From: Desulfuromonas sp. SDB
Lineage (GTDB): Bacteria; SDB-A
Assembly: GCA_001412365.1 (NCBI GenBank)
Contig: LKUE01000431.1
Span: 1 to 8,248, forward strand
Length of the DNA stretch: 8,248 bases
Direction: 5' to 3'
The position numbers were made by a program, and so were the translations under genes. Every line of letters begins with the position of its first letter. Within the stretch, counting starts at the first letter, position 1. The notes beneath the pieces are model-generated. The model saw only the letters and a list, made by a program, of their open reading frames with translations, was not told the origin of the DNA and searched no databases. Of the stretch, positions 53 through 8,248 are shown one piece after another.

Positions 53-763
53 TCACCCCCAATCCCTCAATATCAATTTTACTTTTTCTTTTACCGTTCG
101 GTATATCTCCAGATCAATATACTCTTCAGTACTGTGTTCATTGAAAAATCCTGCTGAAAGGTTAACCGACGGAATGCAATAATATTCAGTTAAATAGTAG
201 ATATCAGAACTGCTTCCAGCCTGATCGGTAAATCCGTATTTTCCACAGAATCCGCATTCTCTGATAAAAATTCTTGATATTTCATTATAGGTTACCGCAT
301 CATTCTCCCCTCTCCGGTCCAGTTCAATGAAAAGGGAGACTTTCTCCGATGGAAAATAATAAAAATCTTCAATGAATTTTCTAACCCCGGTACATCCCCT
401 CTCCTCCCCATTGCAGAACAGCAGATCCGGCTTGTTCTCATCTGTTATCAAATCCAGCATCATACAAACCCCCATCCGGTCATCTCCCCCCAGGATATCA
501 TCCCGGGCATAGATTATATCTCCGTCTTCGATGATATTTAACTCCATTCTCTCATCCCGGACGGTATCAATATGAGAAACCAGGCAGATATGCCAATTTC
601 CCCGGGCATAGATGTAATGATTTCTCCGGCAGTAGATCTGATGCCGGTAATATTTACTTAAATAAGACAGTACTAAATCAAAGACCTGATTTTCATTACT
701 CAGCAACAATTTTTTCAGCAGCTTACTAGTATTTTCTTTTTTCTTAACTGCATTCAACTTCAT
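53..763 (-). CDS. Minimal M20/PepT-like zinc metallopeptidase
   Basis: This 236-residue protein is probably a cytoplasmic two-zinc peptidase of the M20/M28/M42 superfamily (clan MH); its substrate is unknown. The expected ligand set is visible in order: H64-x-D66 in SHIDTV, D94/D95 in LGGDDRMG (close to PepT LGADDKAG), the E120-E121 pair in NGEERG, D149 in ELDRRG, and H210 in NEHSTEE. M20 peptidases are usually about 350-450 residues because a dimerisation or lid domain is inserted in the catalytic domain. That insert is missing here, leaving a bare catalytic core. I see no signal peptide or membrane segment. The ATG directly abuts the TAA of the upstream VWA gene (no spacer), with a GGTGA Shine-Dalgarno inside that gene's end, so translation is probably coupled. 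Fold and zinc site are well supported; any link to the neighbours' function is inferred. Confidence 0.8.
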   Translation of the reverse strand: MKLNAVKKKENTSKLLKKLLLSNENQVFDLVLSYLSKYYRHQIYCRRNHYIYARGNWHICLVSHIDTVRDERMELNIIEDGDIIYARDDILGGDDRMGVCMMLDLITDENKPDLLFCNGEERGCTGVRKFIEDFYYFPSEKVSLFIELDRRGENDAVTYNEISRIFIRECGFCGKYGFTDQAGSSSDIYYLTEYYCIPSVNLSAGFFNEHSTEEYIDLEIYRTVKEKVKLILRDWG

Positions 764-2173
764 TTATATCACCAGACTGTGATCGGTTTTTGATCTTTCA
801 TACAAAAACCATGATTTTTTTAGCCTGCCGGTAGTTTTAAGCTTTGAACTTTCCCTGCTCTCCGAATCGTATTTTTTTAGTAAAATCTCATATATATCCC
901 CATTGATCTGAACTTGCGGAGTATGGAAAAATCCGTCGGTAATAATCAGCGCTTTTCTGAATTTATGTTCATTGATATGCTCCAGAACCACATCAATATT
1001 GGTACCTCCGGAAATTGCATATCCCTTTTTAATATCCTCCAGACTGATTTTTTTGATTATAGTGGAAAAGAGGAAATAGGGTCCTCTGAAAAAATCTCTC
1101 AGTTCCAGGAGGAGATAATAGATTTTTCCCTTGTAAAGGTCGGTGGAACCGGAAAAATCAATATATACTGCAGAAAACTTTTTTTCCCTGTCCCTGCCTA
1201 CAAACCTTCCGGGAAAGAACACCGGGCTGCACCCCCCGGTTACCAGGGCAATCTGTTTTCTTGCATAAAAAGGGATCACCGAATTGAACAACAATTCCTT
1301 TTCAGCTTCAGTGTGATAATTACTGCAGTCGGCAAAGGATCGGGTAATGGCATTTTTCAGTAATTTTAATTCCCGGTTATCCTTTTTACTCAGGGGATTG
1401 AGGTCTATCTTATCTTCAAAATAACCGATATTCTGACCTAAACCCAGGTATTTTAAAATCTTCTGTTTATACCTGGTTCTGATTTTCTTCTTCAAATCTT
1501 CATTAAATACTCCCTCGGACTGAATTAAACTAATGTAATAGTTATTTACTTTTTTCAGATCGAAGATCGTTGACAGCCGGGCGTAGATAACCTGAACGGT
1601 TAATCCTTTTTCAGAATATATATCAAACCACAGGGAAATGAATCTTTCCCACTTCTCCTCAGAGAGCAGATTAATTTTACCCAGCTTTATCTCAATAATT
1701 TCCCTTTTCTCAGGCGGGGGAAAAAGAAGGACATTCAGCAAAGCGGATTTTTCCGGTTTATGTTCCAACTGGCGGTAAAATCTCCGGTAGATCTTGGTTA
1801 AAAAGTCAATGTCCTTCCTTAAATTGATATTGTACATCAGGCTGTTTACCTGGGTATCCAGAACAAAATTATCCATCCGGCTTTTCCGGAAAGGACGGTC
1901 AAAATGCCCCAGCAGATAGTGGGATACTTCATGGATAATCATCCACATGATATCAGCGGAATCCAGATCAAAATCAGAAATGAACTTCTTATTCAGAGTT
2001 ATTGAATACATCCCGTTCCGGTAATAACGGATGCAGGCAGTTCTGGTGATTCCGTCATCTTCAGTAATCCGGAAATCAGTTATTTTATCTCTGAAAACCG
2101 GCAGAAAAGGAAGCAGGGAATTATAACTGCAGTAAATGATTCTAATAAAATCCTGTTTAATCCGGTCCTTCAT
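764..2173 (-). CDS. VWA domain protein with N-terminal HExxH metallopeptidase-like domain (DUF2201 type)
   Basis: A 469-residue two-domain protein. The N-terminal part carries a zinc-peptidase signature, H81-E82-V-S-H85, in MIIHEVSHYLLGH, with a possible further ligand region near D106/N110 (LDTQVNSLM). The C-terminal part, from about residue 333, is a VWA-like domain with a complete metal-ion-dependent adhesion site: D339-x-S-G-S343, T391 in SGGTNID, and D413 in IITDGFF. This architecture matches the DUF2201 family (putative metallopeptidase plus VWA-like domain), usually encoded beside a MoxR AAA+ ATPase, as it is here. About 200 residues between the domains are charged and helical-looking with no motif I recognise. 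The start is supported by an AGAAGGA Shine-Dalgarno 5-6 bases upstream of the ATG. It lies 14 bases after the unknown gene and its stop abuts the M20-like gene. Expected to be cytoplasmic. Whether the HExxH site is active is not shown by sequence alone. Confidence 0.85.
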   Translation of the reverse strand: MKDRIKQDFIRIIYCSYNSLLPFLPVFRDKITDFRITEDDGITRTACIRYYRNGMYSITLNKKFISDFDLDSADIMWMIIHEVSHYLLGHFDRPFRKSRMDNFVLDTQVNSLMYNINLRKDIDFLTKIYRRFYRQLEHKPEKSALLNVLLFPPPEKREIIEIKLGKINLLSEEKWERFISLWFDIYSEKGLTVQVIYARLSTIFDLKKVNNYYISLIQSEGVFNEDLKKKIRTRYKQKILKYLGLGQNIGYFEDKIDLNPLSKKDNRELKLLKNAITRSFADCSNYHTEAEKELLFNSVIPFYARKQIALVTGGCSPVFFPGRFVGRDREKKFSAVYIDFSGSTDLYKGKIYYLLLELRDFFRGPYFLFSTIIKKISLEDIKKGYAISGGTNIDVVLEHINEHKFRKALIITDGFFHTPQVQINGDIYEILLKKYDSESRESSKLKTTGRLKKSWFLYERSKTDHSLVI

Positions 2174-2187
2174 CTCGATCCTTCTGC

Positions 2188-3225
2188 TTAAATTTTATTG
2201 AAAAAATCATCAACAACCCCCAGAGCCAAAAAGTTGAAATTATTCAAATCCGGTTTCAAACTGTTCCGGGGATGATAGATAAAATCATCAATCCGGCTCA
2301 TCAGGTTGATGTCATTGTTCTTTGTTCCCACAACTTCAAGCTCATCATAAAAAATTATCTGAGGGTCGCAGCTCACATAATAGACGTTTTCCCGGAAATC
2401 TTGTTTACGGTCAGTACTGTCGTTTTTAACTAAATATTTTGTTTTAATCAGCAAAGATCGCAGGTCTTCATCAGTTAAACACATGGTCCTGATAAAACCA
2501 TCCCGGGAAAACTCCAGGATGATCTCATCATTCAACTTAACCATCTTTCCGTCAAAAACTGCTGCCAGTTTGCTTTTTCTCCGGGATGGCTTTAATTTCC
2601 GGTAGCTGTACTCATTGAAATCTTCCGAGGCAAATATATAATCGTGTATTATTAAATCCTGATTTATTCTTGTTCTGGCAATGCAGTTAAAGCAGTTTCT
2701 TCTATCCGTTCTGGGGTTGCAGTCAATAATTCCCTCAATTAAGCTGTGCAGATCTGCTTTGTTGTTATAGAGGATAATAGAAAAAATATCTTCTTTAATC
2801 CTTATTCTTCCCCGGTTGCGGGGATAATGCTTAACCAGTTCAGATATCAATTTATTGTGGAACTCGGTTTTGCTGATAACATTTTTTATTCTCTTTCTTT
2901 TCCGGTAATTTTTAACCACCGATTCAAATCCCTCCGAGGTCATCGCATTTTCCCAGAGAAAATCAACTGCAGTAGCCACGTAATTCATCTTGATTGCCAG
3001 AAGACCGGTATATTTTTTATTATCAATAATAAATTCAGAGGATAATTTCCTCTCCGCTTCAGGAGGGATAAACCTGCTGATTATAGAATTTTCCGAACGA
3101 ATTTTCTTATCTTTCAGCAAATTCCGTATTTCATCTTCAGTTTCAAAGGATCTTTCAAATTCTCCGACGGTGAATATCTTCACTCCCCGGAAAATTTTAA
3201 TTTCTCTAAGCTGTTTTAATATCAT
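2188..3225 (-). CDS. Unrecognised 345-residue protein between AAA+ and VWA genes
   Basis: I do not recognise this protein. It is soluble-looking, with no signal peptide or membrane segment, and strongly basic in places (YRKRKRIKNV at 107-116, KPSRRKSK at 212-219). A central cysteine cluster, C169-x8-C178-x2-C181 (CNPRTDRRNCFNC), could bind zinc or another metal, but a fourth ligand is not obvious. The C-terminal half reads like alternating beta strands (for example VYYVSCDPQIIFYDELEVVG at 281-300). Its start overlaps the end of the AAA+ gene by 20 bases and has a GAGG Shine-Dalgarno 6-7 bases before the ATG; the VWA gene begins 14 bases after its stop. This tight packing between the two halves of an AAA+/VWA pair suggests a third subunit or adaptor of that complex. 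That role is inferred from position only. Confidence 0.75.
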   Translation of the reverse strand: MILKQLREIKIFRGVKIFTVGEFERSFETEDEIRNLLKDKKIRSENSIISRFIPPEAERKLSSEFIIDNKKYTGLLAIKMNYVATAVDFLWENAMTSEGFESVVKNYRKRKRIKNVISKTEFHNKLISELVKHYPRNRGRIRIKEDIFSIILYNNKADLHSLIEGIIDCNPRTDRRNCFNCIARTRINQDLIIHDYIFASEDFNEYSYRKLKPSRRKSKLAAVFDGKMVKLNDEIILEFSRDGFIRTMCLTDEDLRSLLIKTKYLVKNDSTDRKQDFRENVYYVSCDPQIIFYDELEVVGTKNNDINLMSRIDDFIYHPRNSLKPDLNNFNFLALGVVDDFFNKI

Positions 3226-4537
3226 AATTATCCTCTTCTTTTTTTATCTGCTTTACCAGCCGCTTAAGTTTTTCCGGTTTGATCTCCTGCAGATAACGAA
3301 AGTTATGAAATAACCTGCACCAGTTGATATCAGCATTCTTAACCGCCAGGGGGAATCCTTCCATATCCTCACCATCTACAGTTAATTCATCTATAATTTT
3401 AAATACCGAAACATCCTGTTCCAGGGCTTGGGACGGATTTTGCTGAAGACGGTATATTTCAAACAGCATTTTCAGGAAAGTGACTAACTTTTTCTTCGGA
3501 GATATCGAGTTTTTATAGTTTTGGATAAAATTTTCGGTTCTCCTCTTTTCAAATTCATTAACCCTTATCATTCCGATATCATAGAGGGTCTTATACAGGA
3601 CTTCTTCCCGGTAGTCTGAATATTCTTCCTCTCCCGCTGAATATATCCAGGAATAACCAGCAATTTCATTTAAATTAACCAGTATGTCCTCCCGGGAAAG
3701 ACTGCCCCGGTGGTACAGATCAATAGACAGAAAAATTTTAAGATTCCTGAAGATCATAGATGCCCTCCTGGGACTGACCGTCAGATAGAGAACAGGGGAC
3801 AGGGCAAAGGCATTTTGATAGTACATTTTTGAAAATTTATCCGCGGTATCCACAAGCTCTTCCGGCAGATTTTCGTAAATTTCCTTGATCTTTGACAGTA
3901 GTTTTTTTAACTTCCGCTGATCTGATTTTTCCGGACAGGTTTTTTCCTTTCTCAATCCCGGGGAATCATCCCGGTGTAGGGAATTAATTATTCCGGAGAT
4001 GGACTCGTGACTGAAGATATCCGGTATTTTCACGATCAGAGAAAACCGGTCGGCCAGAGCAGGATCAAGCGGATTTGCCCCGGGATATTCAACCGGGTTC
4101 ATTGCAGCGAAGATGTATTCCAGGCCGGAAATATCTTTGCCCATGACTGATCGGGAACGGATGATCTCCAGCCATTTGTTCTGCATGGAAGAATTTGCTC
4201 TTGATATCTCGTCAATTAAGATGAATTTCTTATTCCAGATGGTTATCGCTGAATTAAGATAATCCACCCTCCCTTCTTTCATTTTTTCCGGGTCAGGAAA
4301 ACCGATGATATCTTCAAATAGTGATTTTGAAGCATCATAAGCATGGAACTCCCGCTCCTCCCCTTCCACTTTATATCCCAGGGCTTTAGCCAGAGTGTAG
4401 GACAGGAGAGTTTTCCCGGTTCCGTGAGATCCGATAAGCAGAATAGGTTCCCTGGTCAACAAACAGGCAAGCAACGGTTTTTCAATTGATTCATAACCGT
4501 AAACCTCAAGATTTTTTAATATAGAATCAATTAACAT
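3206..4537 (-). CDS. MoxR-type AAA+ ATPase
   Basis: A 443-residue AAA+ ATPase, first gene of the minus-strand operon. Visible motifs are Walker A G36-SHGTGKT43, Walker B FILIDE with D109/E110, sensor 1 N147 in AAMNP, arginine finger R164 in LADRFS, and sensor 2 SPRR at 255-258. The Walker B to sensor 1 layout and the SPRR sensor 2 are typical of MoxR ATPases, which usually work with a VWA partner to remodel or activate proteins; the VWA partner is two genes downstream. Residues from about 190 to 443 exceed a minimal MoxR core and contain helical, charged segments without recognisable motifs. The ATG has a good AAAGGA Shine-Dalgarno (plus-strand 4545-4550) 7 bases upstream. The 3' end overlaps the next gene by 20 bases. 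All nucleotide-binding residues are intact, so it is expected to be active. Confidence 0.9.
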   Translation of the reverse strand: MLIDSILKNLEVYGYESIEKPLLACLLTREPILLIGSHGTGKTLLSYTLAKALGYKVEGEEREFHAYDASKSLFEDIIGFPDPEKMKEGRVDYLNSAITIWNKKFILIDEISRANSSMQNKWLEIIRSRSVMGKDISGLEYIFAAMNPVEYPGANPLDPALADRFSLIVKIPDIFSHESISGIINSLHRDDSPGLRKEKTCPEKSDQRKLKKLLSKIKEIYENLPEELVDTADKFSKMYYQNAFALSPVLYLTVSPRRASMIFRNLKIFLSIDLYHRGSLSREDILVNLNEIAGYSWIYSAGEEEYSDYREEVLYKTLYDIGMIRVNEFEKRRTENFIQNYKNSISPKKKLVTFLKMLFEIYRLQQNPSQALEQDVSVFKIIDELTVDGEDMEGFPLAVKNADINWCRLFHNFRYLQEIKPEKLKRLVKQIKKEEDNYDIKTA

Positions 4538-4573
4538 GTCTTGTTCCTTTCTCTATTACGTTTTTTATATTTA

Positions 4574-4590
4574 TAGTGTTTAATACACTA
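4574..4590. promoter_or_regulatory. Operator O1: perfect 17-bp inverted repeat
   Basis: TAGTGT-TTAAT-ACACTA is a perfect palindrome with 6-bp arms and a 5-bp centre. It lies just downstream of the predicted minus-strand -10, over the likely transcription start, which is a classic position for repression of the AAA+ operon. Two close copies, O2 and O3, lie on the other side of the control region. A dimeric helix-turn-helix repressor is the likely ligand, but none is encoded in this window. Confidence 0.75.
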
Positions 4591-4591
4591 A

Positions 4592-4619
4592 TTTATTCAC
4601 ATACCTTTTCAAATGTCAA
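4592..4619 (-). promoter_or_regulatory. Predicted sigma70-type promoter of the AAA+/VWA/peptidase operon
   Basis: Read on the minus strand, a perfect TTGACA -35 (plus 4614-4619) is followed after 16 bases by AATAAA (plus 4592-4597), a 4/6 match to the -10. The start point would fall near 4585, inside operator O1, about 50 bases before the ATG at 4537. The -10 is weak, so another hexamer may be used; TATAAA lies a little further downstream. Confidence 0.5.
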
Positions 4620-4629
4620 GAAAAATATT

Positions 4630-4646
4630 TAGTGTAATTGTCGCTA
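4630..4646. promoter_or_regulatory. Operator O2: degenerate copy of the 17-bp inverted repeat
   Basis: TAGTGT-AATTG-TCGCTA. The left arm is identical to O1; the right arm matches the perfect inverted arm at 4 of 6 positions. AT-rich flanks extend the symmetry (AAATATT before, AAAATAT after). It overlaps the predicted -35 of the plus-strand operon. Its centre is 56 bp from that of O1 and 34 bp from that of O3. Confidence 0.65.
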
Positions 4647-4667
4647 AAATATATTTAACTTTATAGT
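4638..4667 (+). promoter_or_regulatory. Predicted promoter of the HsdS-like/HsdM-like operon
   Basis: TTGTCG (4638-4643, 4/6 match to the -35) and TATAGT (4662-4667, 5/6 match to the -10) are separated by 18 bases. The start point would be near 4674, about 75 bases before the chosen ATG. Both elements lie inside or against operators O2 and O3. An alternative -35-like TTGACT occurs at 4704, but a start from it would fall on the ribosome binding site, so I prefer the upstream pair. Confidence 0.45.
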
Positions 4668-4680
4668 GTAATATACGCTA
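4664..4680. promoter_or_regulatory. Operator O3: near-perfect copy of the 17-bp inverted repeat
   Basis: TAGTGT-AATAT-ACGCTA. The right arm has one mismatch to the perfect inverted arm, and the preceding TTA is shared with O1. It overlaps the predicted -10 and start point of the plus-strand HsdS/HsdM-like operon, so binding here should block that promoter. Confidence 0.7.
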
Positions 4681-4747
4681 TTAAATTTTATCAAAAAAAG
4701 TGCTTGACTTGCTAAAACTTGACCCATTAAATAAAACAAGAGGAAAT

Positions 4748-5335
4748 ATGCAGAAAAAACACCTACAGGACGTAGCAGAAATATTCTCCGGTTATTTGTT
4801 CAAGGAAGTCCTGAAAAATGATGAAGACGGGGAAATCATGGTAATCCAGCTGAAAAATGTAAATGATGATGGGGAAATAACCCTGAACAACCTGTTCAAG
4901 GTTTCCCTGGATAATGTCAGTGAAAGACTGTACCTCCGCAAGAACGACATTATTTTCAAATCAAAGAGTACCAGTCATTCTTCAGCTATCATTCCTGAAG
5001 TAACCGGTAAGATCATAGCCAGTTCTCATTACCTGACCGTCAGGATTACTGAAGATTCAGTTCTGCCGGAATATTTATTGTGGTATCTTCAGCAGGATTT
5101 TACCCAGGACTACTTTATGAAAAAAGCGGGGCGGAGGCTGATCCGGCTGATCAATAAAAAAGTACTGGGAGAACTGGAAGTAAAGATTCCTTCTATTGCC
5201 CATCAGGAGCAGATAGTTCAGTTGAATGACCTTTTCCGGAAAGAGAAGAAGCTGACCCTTAAACTCCTGAAAAAGAAAGAGCAGATGATTTACGGCATTT
5301 TCCTGAAATTACTGGGAGAGGACAGTGGAAAATAA
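4748..5335 (+). CDS. Half-length HsdS-like type I specificity protein (single TRD)
   Basis: A 195-residue protein resembling half of a type I R-M specificity subunit: one target-recognition domain (about 5-150) plus one conserved helical segment (about 157-185). HsdS-like landmarks are LQDVAEIFSGYLFKE at 6-20, VIQLKNVN at 32-39, LRKNDIIFKSK at 63-73, LPEYLLWYL at 106-114, and the end-of-TRD pattern LGELEVKIPSIAHQEQIV at 140-157. A full HsdS is about 400 residues with two TRDs, so this form probably dimerises to read a symmetric site. I chose the ATG at 4748 because AAGAGG lies just before it and HsdS similarity begins there. An in-frame GTG at 4700 would add 16 residues without a Shine-Dalgarno. 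The stop overlaps the HsdM-like start by 11 bases, so the two are probably translated together. DNA binding is inferred from family; the target is unknown. Confidence 0.8.
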   Translation: MQKKHLQDVAEIFSGYLFKEVLKNDEDGEIMVIQLKNVNDDGEITLNNLFKVSLDNVSERLYLRKNDIIFKSKSTSHSSAIIPEVTGKIIASSHYLTVRITEDSVLPEYLLWYLQQDFTQDYFMKKAGRRLIRLINKKVLGELEVKIPSIAHQEQIVQLNDLFRKEKKLTLKLLKKKEQMIYGIFLKLLGEDSGK

Positions 5336-6722
5336 AAAACAGCCCAAGAGAATACAGACTAGCACGGAAAGCATCGGCTACCGGCTGGATAAACTGCACC
5401 GGGCATTAAAACTGGACATGGACCCTGATCTATGTGCAATGTACATCCTCACCTTTTATTTCTATAAATATATAAATGATATTTTCCCGGATAAACAAAA
5501 CTCTCCTTTTGCAGTTCCTGAAAACTGCCGGTTTGAGTATATCTGCAAACACCGAAATAAGAAAAAAATCGGAATAATCATAAACGAGGTTTTCGCTGAA
5601 CTGGAGAGCCGAAACGAGGATAAGCTGAAAGGCTTGCTCAGTATTGTTGATTTTAACTCCACCCGGTTGGGAAGGAAAAACTACCGGAATTTGAAGCTGA
5701 TCCATCTGATTGAAGAATTTTCCCGGATAAATTTCAACTCTCCCCCCTACCGGGAAGAAAATAAGAACCGGATTCCGGATACTTTCTACTACTTTATCTC
5801 CAGTAATTACCAAAGGGGAATAGATATCCCTGTTTACCAGGCAGAACTGTTGACCAAACTTCTCGAACCCCAAGACGGTCAAAGTATCTGCGACCCATTC
5901 TGCAATGCCGGCTCCCTCCTCCGATCTTTTGCTCTGCTCAATCCGTATAAAGATCTGTTGTTCTTCGGTCAGGAGAAGAACCGGCATCTCCATGCACTCT
6001 GCAAGATGGGATTATACCTGCAGGAGGTCTATCAATCAGAAATTGAATTGCGGGATAATCTGGCTGAATCAGATTCTTCTCTTTTTGAAAGCAAGTACAA
6101 ACTGGTGGTCACCAAGATATATACAAGGATTCCCCTTCCGGTTAGACTTAGAATGAAAAGAGAAGGCCGTCCCCGGTTTAAAATACATTATGACCGTATA
6201 TCCAAGTCATTAGAGATGATGGACACTGGAAAAGGAAAAGCGGGATTTATTGTTTCCGGAGCATTTCTTTCTGCCAGTGAAGAGTACGGGGATTTCTGGG
6301 AACATATTTTCAAAGAAAATCTTCTGGATGCAGTAATCGGTTTTTCATATTATCCATCCCAGTCCGGTTACTTCAGTAATGCAGTACTGGTGTTTAAAAA
6401 AGACCGCACTACCAGTGATGTGCTGTTTATCAGCGTAGAAAACAGGATAAGGAGTTTTTTAAAGAGAATAAACAGGGATAAGAACCTGGAAAAAGTAATA
6501 GACATTTACCGGCAGTACAAATCTGAGGAGAACTTATCCTGCCTGGCTGGTATTGAGGAAATCCGGAATAATAATTTCAGCATTGATATCAATTCCTATC
6601 TGGAAACGGAGAAGAAAGAACATTCCGATATCGGTAGTTTAAAAATGGAAATTGAACAACTAGAAACCGAATTACAGAAAGTCAGACAATCTCTGGATAG
6701 TAAACTGGAGGAGATTGATTAA
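5325..6722 (+). CDS. HsdM-like N6-adenine methyltransferase homologue, probably catalytically dead
   Basis: A 465-residue HsdM relative. Shared landmarks are motif I region ICDPFCNAGSLL (188-199), motif II-like FFGQEKN followed by ALCKMGLYLQEV (213-235; canonical GQE.N...ARMNL), motif III-like ELRDNLAESD (241-250), and the late HsdM segment ENLLDAVIGF...GYFSNAVLVFKK (331-359). Key catalytic features are lost. GSGG of motif I reads NAGS. The FYTP-like motif X position reads IDIPVY. The place after YKLVV (258-262), where NPPF/Y should be, reads TKIYTR. An SPPY at 139-142 lies before motif I and looks coincidental. The C-terminus (about 436-464) is a predicted coiled coil. The start is GTG, with GGGAGAGG just upstream, inside the HsdS-like gene. 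Most likely a pseudo-methyltransferase that scaffolds the HsdS-like protein or senses SAM; residual activity cannot be excluded from sequence. Confidence 0.85.
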   Translation: MENKKQPKRIQTSTESIGYRLDKLHRALKLDMDPDLCAMYILTFYFYKYINDIFPDKQNSPFAVPENCRFEYICKHRNKKKIGIIINEVFAELESRNEDKLKGLLSIVDFNSTRLGRKNYRNLKLIHLIEEFSRINFNSPPYREENKNRIPDTFYYFISSNYQRGIDIPVYQAELLTKLLEPQDGQSICDPFCNAGSLLRSFALLNPYKDLLFFGQEKNRHLHALCKMGLYLQEVYQSEIELRDNLAESDSSLFESKYKLVVTKIYTRIPLPVRLRMKREGRPRFKIHYDRISKSLEMMDTGKGKAGFIVSGAFLSASEEYGDFWEHIFKENLLDAVIGFSYYPSQSGYFSNAVLVFKKDRTTSDVLFISVENRIRSFLKRINRDKNLEKVIDIYRQYKSEENLSCLAGIEEIRNNNFSIDINSYLETEKKEHSDIGSLKMEIEQLETELQKVRQSLDSKLEEID

Positions 6723-6936: not shown

Positions 6937-7797
6937 ATGGAAATAAAAACAGAAATAAGGTTAGGTGACTGTAAACAAATATTAAAAGAATATAATGACA
7001 ACATCGTTGATTTAATTTTTACTTCTCCTCCTTATGCCGACCAGCGAAAAAAAACCTATGGTGGTATACCACCTGATAAATATGTTGATTGGTTTTTGCC
7101 AATTTCAGAACAGCTTTTAAGAGTATTAAAACCTACTGGAACTTTTATATTAAATATCAAAGAAAAAGTAGTCAATGGTGAACGTAGCACCTATGTTATG
7201 GAATTGATACTAGAAATGAGAAAACAAGGTTGGCTATGGACAGAAGAATTTATATGGCACAAGAGGAATTGCTATCCTGGAAAATGGCCTAATCGTTTTC
7301 GTGATGCCTGGGAGCGACTATTACAGTTTAACAAAAATAAAAAGTTTAACATGTATCAGAAAGAAGTAATGATCCCCATGGGAGACTGGTCTAAAACACG
7401 TTTAAAAAACCTAAGCGAAACAGATTTGATACGAGATGAATCAAAAGTAGGGAGTGGATTTGGGAAAAATATTTCTAATTGGTTGAATCGTGATAAAGTA
7501 TACCCAACAAATGTATTGCATCTAGCTACTGAGTGTAATAACAAGAATCATAGTGCAGCTTTCCCAGAAGGATTACCTACATGGTTTATTAAACTTTTTA
7601 CTAAATCACATGATGTAGTACTTGATCCTTTTATGGGATCAGGCACAACAAATTTTGTTGCTCAAAGAATGAACCGAAACTCTATTGGAATCGAAATTCA
7701 AAAGAAATATTACGATATGGTTAAAAAGAAAATTGACGAAAAAAAACTTGTACTTTTTGAACCTGGAGAAATATATGGCAAAACTAAAATTAAATGA
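6937..7797 (+). CDS. Beta-class site-specific DNA methyltransferase of a type II R-M system
   Basis: A 286-residue SAM-dependent DNA methyltransferase. The catalytic motif IV T29-SPPY33 comes first, and the SAM-binding motif I D230-PFMGSGTT238 with GIEI (251-254) lies near the C-terminus, which is the beta-class order (N4-cytosine or N6-adenine; the sequence alone does not decide which). RLGDCKQIL at 8-16 is the usual opening of these enzymes, and NHSAAFPEGLP at 204-214 matches the conserved H..xFP..LP segment before motif I. Length is normal and all motifs are intact, so it is probably active. The ATG has no clear Shine-Dalgarno, only an AT-rich leader preceded by two TAA codons. The endonuclease gene starts 23 bases before this gene's stop. 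It should protect host DNA at the endonuclease site. AT-rich codon use sets it apart from genes to the left. Confidence 0.9.
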   Translation: MEIKTEIRLGDCKQILKEYNDNIVDLIFTSPPYADQRKKTYGGIPPDKYVDWFLPISEQLLRVLKPTGTFILNIKEKVVNGERSTYVMELILEMRKQGWLWTEEFIWHKRNCYPGKWPNRFRDAWERLLQFNKNKKFNMYQKEVMIPMGDWSKTRLKNLSETDLIRDESKVGSGFGKNISNWLNRDKVYPTNVLHLATECNNKNHSAAFPEGLPTWFIKLFTKSHDVVLDPFMGSGTTNFVAQRMNRNSIGIEIQKKYYDMVKKKIDEKKLVLFEPGEIYGKTKIK

Positions 7798-8248
7798 CGT
7801 AACTAGGTATGTGGAAGAAAATATTGGAACATTCCACCAAAAAAGAATTGAGAGTCTTAACAAACTAAAACTTAAAACAGTGCTTAAAAGAAAAAATCCA
7901 TACTTGTTTAAAGCAAAACATTTACTTACAGCAGGAGAAATAGTTCAAGGGATTGTAGATGCTTTTATTTCTTCAAACGAAGAAACAATTTTTGGTGATT
8001 GGTTAGAAGGATTAGCAATCTTTATAAATCAAAAGGTTTTTAATGGTTGGAAATCTGGTATTACAGGTATTGACTTAGAATTTGATAAAGATACTATAAG
8101 ATATATTGTCAGTATCAAATCTGGTCCAAATTGGGGAAATAGTCGGCAAATTTCCAAAATGAAATCTGATTTTAGCACTGCAAAGAAAACGCTTAGGACA
8201 AGTAATTCAAAATTGAGTATAATTGCAATAAATGGATGCTGCTATGGT
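7775..8248 (+). CDS. PmeII-like type II restriction endonuclease, 3' end outside the window
   Basis: An ATG at 7775 opens a frame of 158 codons that stays open to the window edge. The product begins MAKLKLNDVTRYVEE. NPYLFKAKH (41-49), SSNEETIFGDWLEGLAIF (66-83) and SIKSGPNWGNSRQI (113-126) match what I recall of the PmeII family of type II endonucleases. The probable nuclease core is E78 in WLEGLA, D100 in GIDLEF, and S113-I-K115 in YIVSIKSGP; this resembles PD-(D/E)xK with serine at the usual acidic position. The gene overlaps the methyltransferase by 23 bases in another frame, the expected pairing of cognate methylase and nuclease with coupled translation. The recognition site cannot be read from sequence. 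The C-terminal part is not in the window, so completeness is unknown. Confidence 0.8.
   Translation, partial: MAKLKLNDVTRYVEENIGTFHQKRIESLNKLKLKTVLKRKNPYLFKAKHLLTAGEIVQGIVDAFISSNEETIFGDWLEGLAIFINQKVFNGWKSGITGIDLEFDKDTIRYIVSIKSGPNWGNSRQISKMKSDFSTAKKTLRTSNSKLSIIAINGCCYG

Follow-up and report, generated by a model that had tools for sequence, protein, structure and literature searches.

A half-HsdS and a pseudo-methyltransferase as a candidate operon-specific repressor of an AAA+/VWA/metallopeptidase machine in Desulfuromonas sp. SDB

Why should a type I restriction-modification (R-M) methyltransferase that appears to have lost its catalytic motifs be encoded back to back with the operon of an ATP-driven, protease-like machine? 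The question is raised by contig LKUE01000431.1 of Desulfuromonas sp. SDB, the whole of which (8248 bp, one contig of a 433-contig genome of 3.14 Mb) is referred to here as the window, everything seen in it ending at the contig ends. An earlier reading made from the sequence alone (the sequence-only reading) had taken six of its genes for a single system, in which a DNA-sensing pair of HsdS and HsdM homologues may trigger a proteolytic or remodelling response. The answer preferred here, which we would regard as about evenly balanced between right and wrong, is that this pair (S/M in what follows) is an operon-specific repressor, made from a dead type I methyltransferase, that governs the AAA+/metallopeptidase machine.

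All six open reading frames (ORFs) were confirmed on the strands originally claimed for them, as two operons diverging from one control region, and the genes of the minus-strand operon overlap their neighbours or nearly abut them. The features are as follows, both promoters coming from a consensus scan only:

53–763, minus strand: M20/M28-like (PepT-like) peptidase, 236 residues (PepT-like 3.7e-10); variable accessory gene
764–2173, minus strand: HExxH (zincin-like) protein with a C-terminal VWA domain, 469 residues (HEVSH and metal ion-dependent adhesion site, MIDAS)
2188–3225, minus strand: conserved unknown protein (UNK), 345 residues, between AAA+ and VWA; related to the copies in genome G001
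3206–4537, minus strand: MoxR-type AAA+ ATPase, 443 residues (AAA_5 1.7e-11; bpMoxR 34 bits over cut-off)
4538–4747: divergent control region, 210 bp
4574–4590: predicted operator 1, TAGTGTTTAATACACTA, at the AAA-operon promoter
4590–4619, minus strand: candidate AAA-operon promoter, TTGACA-N18-TAAATT
4630–4646: predicted operator 2, TAGTGTAATTGTCGCTA, overlapping the candidate -35 of the HsdS promoter
4638–4667, plus strand: candidate HsdS/HsdM-operon promoter, TTGTCG-N18-TATAGT
4664–4680: predicted operator 3, TAGTGTAATATACGCTA, overlapping the candidate -10 of the HsdS promoter
4748–5335, plus strand: half-HsdS with one target-recognition domain (TRD), 195 residues (PF01420 2.9e-8)
5325–6722, plus strand: HsdM homologue without catalytic motifs (pseudo-methyltransferase), 465 residues (PF02384 1e-27)

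For the half-HsdS, the ATG at 4748 (which follows AGAGGAAAT, the start being picked from AGAGGAAATATG) is more likely to be the start than the GTG at 4700.

The description of the plus-strand operon as a half HsdS with an inactive HsdM, unaccompanied by HsdR, stands up well. PF01420 matches the half-HsdS only once, over 162 residues, showing that an HsdS specificity domain is present, while its partner, in addition to PF02384, matches HsdM_N (1.5e-8) and can be aligned with EcoR124I HsdM over 403 residues (3.8e-13). According to this alignment motif I of the window HsdM is DPFCNAGSLL (residues 190–199), and residues 261–266 read VVTKIY where NPPY of motif IV is expected. Motif IV has a known role in adenine methylation, and because it is replaced the window HsdM would not be expected to methylate adenine; NPPF/Y is in fact missing from every full-length HsdM of the related loci described below. 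HsdR is absent from the ORFs of the window, the HsdR of this genome being at a separate locus (on contig C411) with its own two-TRD HsdS. At L009:836-6952 of this genome, a type I system of the classic kind, with a two-TRD HsdS and an HsdR, is interrupted by a 517-aa gene that by eye is transposase-like.

Whether S/M and the machine belong together was examined in a limited body of data, comprising few genomes and contigs of metagenome-assembled genomes. A five-gene core of half-HsdS, dead HsdM, AAA+, UNK and zincin-VWA is found again at four or more other loci, in G001, which belongs to a second genus of the window's family, and in Caldifarciminota (WOR-3). VWA was found in two of the four genomes compared from the window's phylum, with two copies in G001: at C36 the half-HsdS and HsdM-like genes diverge from AAA+, UNK and VWA in the same layout as in the window, and at C92 the second-copy AAA+ also has a divergent half-HsdS/HsdM, C70 being probably the continuation of this locus that holds its VWA end. 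In the Caldifarciminota genomes G290 (locus L088) and G291 (L052) all five genes are co-directional, two small ORFs separating HsdM from AAA+ in the latter, and in G312 pieces of the module are split over two contig ends. Of the 147 Caldifarciminota genomes, three contain the dead-HsdM family (over 200 bits; next 112), and exactly these three hold the closest VWA proteins (600–672 bits; next 148), a coincidence with a probability of 1.9e-6 if genomes are treated as independent, although the true figure must be weaker as G291 and G312 are close kin. It is near certain that the association of S/M with AAA+/UNK/VWA is real rather than due to chance. That S/M might be a decayed type I remnant was considered and rejected: the dead pair has been retained alongside this machine in both lineages, and the G290 genome has no HsdR, no second PF01420 and no other HsdM-profile match, so that S/M cannot there be a stray part of some other type I system.

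The machine itself is another matter. An alignment search with AAA+ returned 46 loci from many phyla, and AAA+/UNK/VWA without S/M is common (Ignavibacteriota, Goldbacteria, Endomicrobia, Myxococcota, Planctomycetota, Kiritimatiellota and three viral contigs), the machine being present in 11 of the 147 Caldifarciminota genomes; a search of plasmids with VWA gave no match. Since the core alone is so much more widespread, the S/M pair is an add-on to it. Moreover, regulators of the WYL-HTH-WCX type (HTH, helix-turn-helix) adjoin machines that have no S/M in Ignavibacteriota and Myxococcota (L046:3662-4699, L047:3901-4887 and L065:1529-2623), for which reason S/M appears to be one among several modules that control the machine. 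The S/M-linked AAA+ proteins may or may not have a single origin. The six-gene system originally proposed thus survives as a five-gene core, the M20-like peptidase having been rejected as a fixed sixth gene because other genes take its place in G001, G290 and G291/G312; and if the two operons are asked whether they occur apart, the machine does so for the most part, but the dead S/M pair does not.

Some further observations concern these loci. Kilobases upstream of the first S/M pair, G291 (L052:1110-3072) and G312 (L212:2279-4244) carry a second half-HsdS/dead-HsdM pair with no AAA+ adjoining. The large viral contigs (L092-L094) have the VWA and AAA+ genes in changed order, followed by a gene of ~450-610 aa. 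Neighbours of the module loci are mixed; a few kilobases away from its module, G001 has a gene for a RES-domain protein, likely a toxin (L007:946-1533), accompanied by a putative antitoxin gene, while the gene following VWA in G001, the C-terminal motif of which looks retropepsin-like by eye, has no Pfam, PDB or PHROG match, and no claim is made for it.

What might S/M be reading? The control region of the window contains three 17-bp bipartite palindromes, TAGYG-N7-CRCTA, which lie over or directly beside the candidate promoters of the two operons, much as the sequence-only reading had supposed in speaking of shared operators. Over the entire 3.14 Mb genome the pattern TAGYGWNNNNNWCRCTA has three perfect matches, all of them in this control region, and a trio as good was found in 0 of 400 shuffles. 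A comparable situation exists in G291, where GCGAATA-N6-TATTCGC has three perfect copies in 2.0 Mb, every one of them in the module locus: one abuts the AAA+ promoter TTGACA-N17-TATAAT, one is deeper in that leader and one is within the terminal part of the VWA gene. A near-copy is also present between the two boxes of the HsdS promoter (TTGACT-N17-TATTAT), in a block that is identical in G312 despite diverged DNA upstream, and in L088 GAATA-N6-TATTC, ahead of the AAA+ promoter, resembles the G291 site. A further candidate from G291, ATACTC-N7-GAGTAT at its second S/M pair, was dropped as a private operator, being neither private nor present in G312.

An independent test came from plasmids, with which the window half-HsdS was compared; eleven distinct relatives (L214-L224) were examined together with their surroundings. 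In every one of these the half-HsdS is gene 1 of a complete type I operon, made up of half-S, HsdM with intact motifs (a DPAC-type motif I and NPPF are kept in all eleven, unlike in the window HsdM), further genes, a second S and HsdR. Within 120 bp upstream of the half-HsdS, ten of the eleven have a perfect bipartite palindrome, often as two copies around TTGACx:

CTGTA-N8-TACAG: L214, L217, L221
CTGTA-N7-TACAG: L218, L219, L220, L224
GCATCA-N7-TGATGC: L222, L223
TGAGCC-N6-GGCTCA: L216

The mean best palindrome score is 7.23, compared with 4.44 in shuffles (maximum 5.41; 0 of 300 as high) and 5.18 at 500 bp further upstream. A single half-site, CTGTA, used with spacers of 7 and 8 is what type I readers show, and the window sites have the same geometry as those of the plasmids. 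In the one informative group, L222/L223 compared with L216, HsdM agrees at 74-75% and half-S at 29-34%, and it is half-S rather than HsdM that the operator type tracks. The plasmid layout in its own right, with half-HsdS first and paired bipartite palindromes at the promoter, is apparently an undescribed regulatory arrangement.

Turning to the machine, the sequence-only description of its operon (MoxR ATPase, unknown protein, HExxH-VWA protein, M20-like peptidase) is also sustained. The MoxR-type AAA+ protein has intact Walker A (GSHGTGKT) and Walker B (ILIDE) motifs. In the VWA protein HEVSH is found at 81-85, and the MIDAS residues (DFSGS 339-343, T391, D413) are intact; its assignment rests on alignment to relatives, as the Pfam VWA models do not report it. 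It matches MJ1213 weakly at the profile level and matches neither DUF2201_N nor DUF2201, to both of which more distant VWA relatives (e.g. L043) do correspond. UNK matches no Pfam or NCBIfam family, its relatives likewise having no Pfam match; a profile link to a 15-member family in other phyla is weak (P 0.003, probability only 11%), and predicted models (pLDDT 69 for L088 and 48, which is poor, for the window) gave no Foldseek or VIA match of weight. For the M20-like peptidase, an alignment with peptidase T (3gb0) spans SHIDTV, GGDDR, NGEERG and EHSTEE, so that the metal-ligand motifs H, D, EE and H are apparently kept. This short protein (53-763) is closest to the phage peptidase family phrog_4191 (1.4e-31), which occurs in large Enterococcus, Brevibacillus and other phages.

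Put together, these elements suggest the following scheme. A dimer of half-HsdS with two dead HsdM subunits would form a complex that reads TAGYG-N7-CRCTA, as the geometry of the sites, their privacy and the plasmid family indicate; bound at the operators, it would, judging from their position, repress both divergent promoters and so act as an autoregulated switch. Loss, titration or removal of S/M would then allow the AAA+/VWA/zincin machine to be made, in which the AAA+ ring and the VWA adaptor may hold client proteins while the zincin domain cuts or processes them, as might be expected from MoxR/VWA biology and the intact HExxH. The M20-like gene would be an exchangeable accessory. There are precedents for several of these steps: a half-HsdS made by engineering forms, with HsdM, a dimer that reads ACC-N5-GGT, and half-HsdS dimers have been likened to transcription factors (PMC6158711), while for the function of the machine RavA-ViaA and NorQD are MoxR/VWA precedents.

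All the same, a number of points weigh against a repressor of this kind. One perfect copy of the G291 operator is inside the coding end of VWA (L052:13770-13789), and the same is true in G312 (L136:3306-3325); single palindromes in the L088 promoters are no better than shuffles, and both G001 copies are without clear repeated operators, their palindromes again being no better than shuffles. Among the plasmids, L215 has no perfect bipartite palindrome in its promoter, and the tracking of half-S by operator type is loose, the CTGTA operons being close kin and promoters being co-inherited with genes, so that it carries little weight. Plasmid HsdM is intact, so methylation of the operators, rather than binding alone, could be what acts there.

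It might be, then, that the operators are read by a separate transcription factor encoded elsewhere, S/M being the machine's substrate, scaffold or partner. This we think unlikely, though operator binding by S/M is deduced from sequence, three other versions of the machine adjoin the WYL-HTH regulators already mentioned, and a helix-turn-helix-like gene (recognised by eye) that follows VWA in the G291/G312 cluster could read the operators there. However, neither the window nor the ORFs surrounding L088 showed a recognisable regulator gene; the plasmid half-HsdS promoters have palindromes, yet there is no annotated regulator between half-S and HsdR; and a single half-site with a spacer of 7 or 8 fits a type I reader better than it does a rigid dimeric HTH protein. 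The alternative nearest to the original claim, which seems to us improbable, has S/M finding its targets on incoming foreign DNA and recruiting or activating the AAA+/VWA protease by direct action, for instance in phage defence. The conserved association of S/M with the machine would suit it, as would the type II R-M system with an EcoO109I-like nuclease that adjoins the module in the window and the WYL regulators flanking the machine in those three other loci. The candidate target sites, however, are private to the operon's own promoters, which points to self-regulation; with its HsdM dead, S/M has no means of marking self DNA, host copies of the sites would stay unprotected and a foreign-DNA trigger is for this reason less likely than self-regulation; the core machine is without S/M in most lineages; and matches to defence families in the window are limited to the S/M type. 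The proposal that DNA sensing triggers proteolysis is no better supported than a simpler operon-specific regulator reading private operators, although a defence role for the module is possible.

Equally doubtful, in our estimation, is that AAA+/UNK/VWA is a housekeeping machine for maturation or assembly, with S/M providing only local control and having no part in conflict. Across many phyla the core does form an operon by itself, which in L035/L048, for instance, lies next to genes like those for ATP synthase subunits, and it is present on three large viral contigs, the MoxR and metallopeptidase-vWA pair of jumbo phages having been proposed to serve in virion assembly (PMC7824862); but its patchy occurrence, in the proportions given above for Caldifarciminota and for the window's own phylum, and its variable accessory genes suggest an accessory system. 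A more elaborate idea starts from anti-restriction proteins of the Ocr and ArdA type, which are DNA mimics that bind type I methyltransferases. The half-HsdS/HsdM pair would be a new class of regulator, the dead S/M both guarding the AAA+/metallopeptidase effector and acting as a decoy for such proteins, attack by which would free the effector; this we regard as a long shot.

Comparison with known systems helps to define what is distinctive here. With type I R-M, including its half-HsdS variants, the module shares a one-TRD HsdS, a partner of HsdM fold and a bipartite target geometry, but the NPPY of its HsdM is lost, no HsdR is nearby, the candidate targets are private operators and an AAA+/VWA operon is coupled to it; the distinction from classical type I R-M drawn by the sequence-only reading thus holds, as does that from BREX and DISARM, no PADLOC match to PglX/PglZ/BrxC or DrmA/DrmB/DrmMI/II having been found among the window proteins. 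As to MADS, the half-HsdS matches the mad5 profile (1.3e-17) and HsdM the mad2 profile (6.1e-11), but the similarity is that of HsdS and HsdM in general (NCBIfam MAD5 gives 22 bits against a cut-off of 400), and of the eight-gene MAD set the window has, beyond generic mad2/mad5, only a weak mad8 match (0.011). The conflict systems centred on MoxR and vWA that Kaur et al. described in 2020 (PMC7159879), in the text of which HsdS/HsdM are not mentioned, have in common with the module a MoxR AAA+, a vWA with MIDAS, a variable third component and peptidase themes; the UNK of the module, unmatched and with a poor model in the window, is so far not recognised as VMAP, iSTAND, FtsH or beta-propeller, and the module differs in that its zincin is N-terminal to vWA. 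The order of zincin then vWA, with MoxR adjoining, is found in the jumbo-phage pair (PMC7824862) and the DUF2201 family, but for that pair no S/M is reported and the proposed role is, as noted, in virion assembly. C proteins, which use HTH motifs, and RptR, which binds the 6-bp palindrome TAGCTA, are likewise small operon-proximal regulators acting on repeated palindromes in R-M promoters (PMC12707154, PMC12255303), but they are dedicated small regulators, whereas the module's candidate reader is the specificity subunit of an R-M enzyme.

Keyword searches of the open-access literature found neither a half-HsdS acting as regulator in work on R-M regulation (earlier work may exist) nor a combination of MoxR, vWA, HsdM and HsdS. 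Should the repressor reading be true, type I specificity subunits would have been turned into gene switches both in plasmid type I operons and in the module, where the partner is a dead methylase and an AAA+/protease machine is governed; this would partly answer how type I operons are controlled, for which reviews name other modes and no half-HsdS one, and MoxR-vWA systems would gain a regulated class with an exchangeable reader.

Downstream of HsdM in the window, an EcoO109I-type nuclease gene (PF14511 1.6e-71), truncated by the contig end, forms with a PF01555 (N4/N6) methyltransferase a type II R-M pair at 6937-8248.

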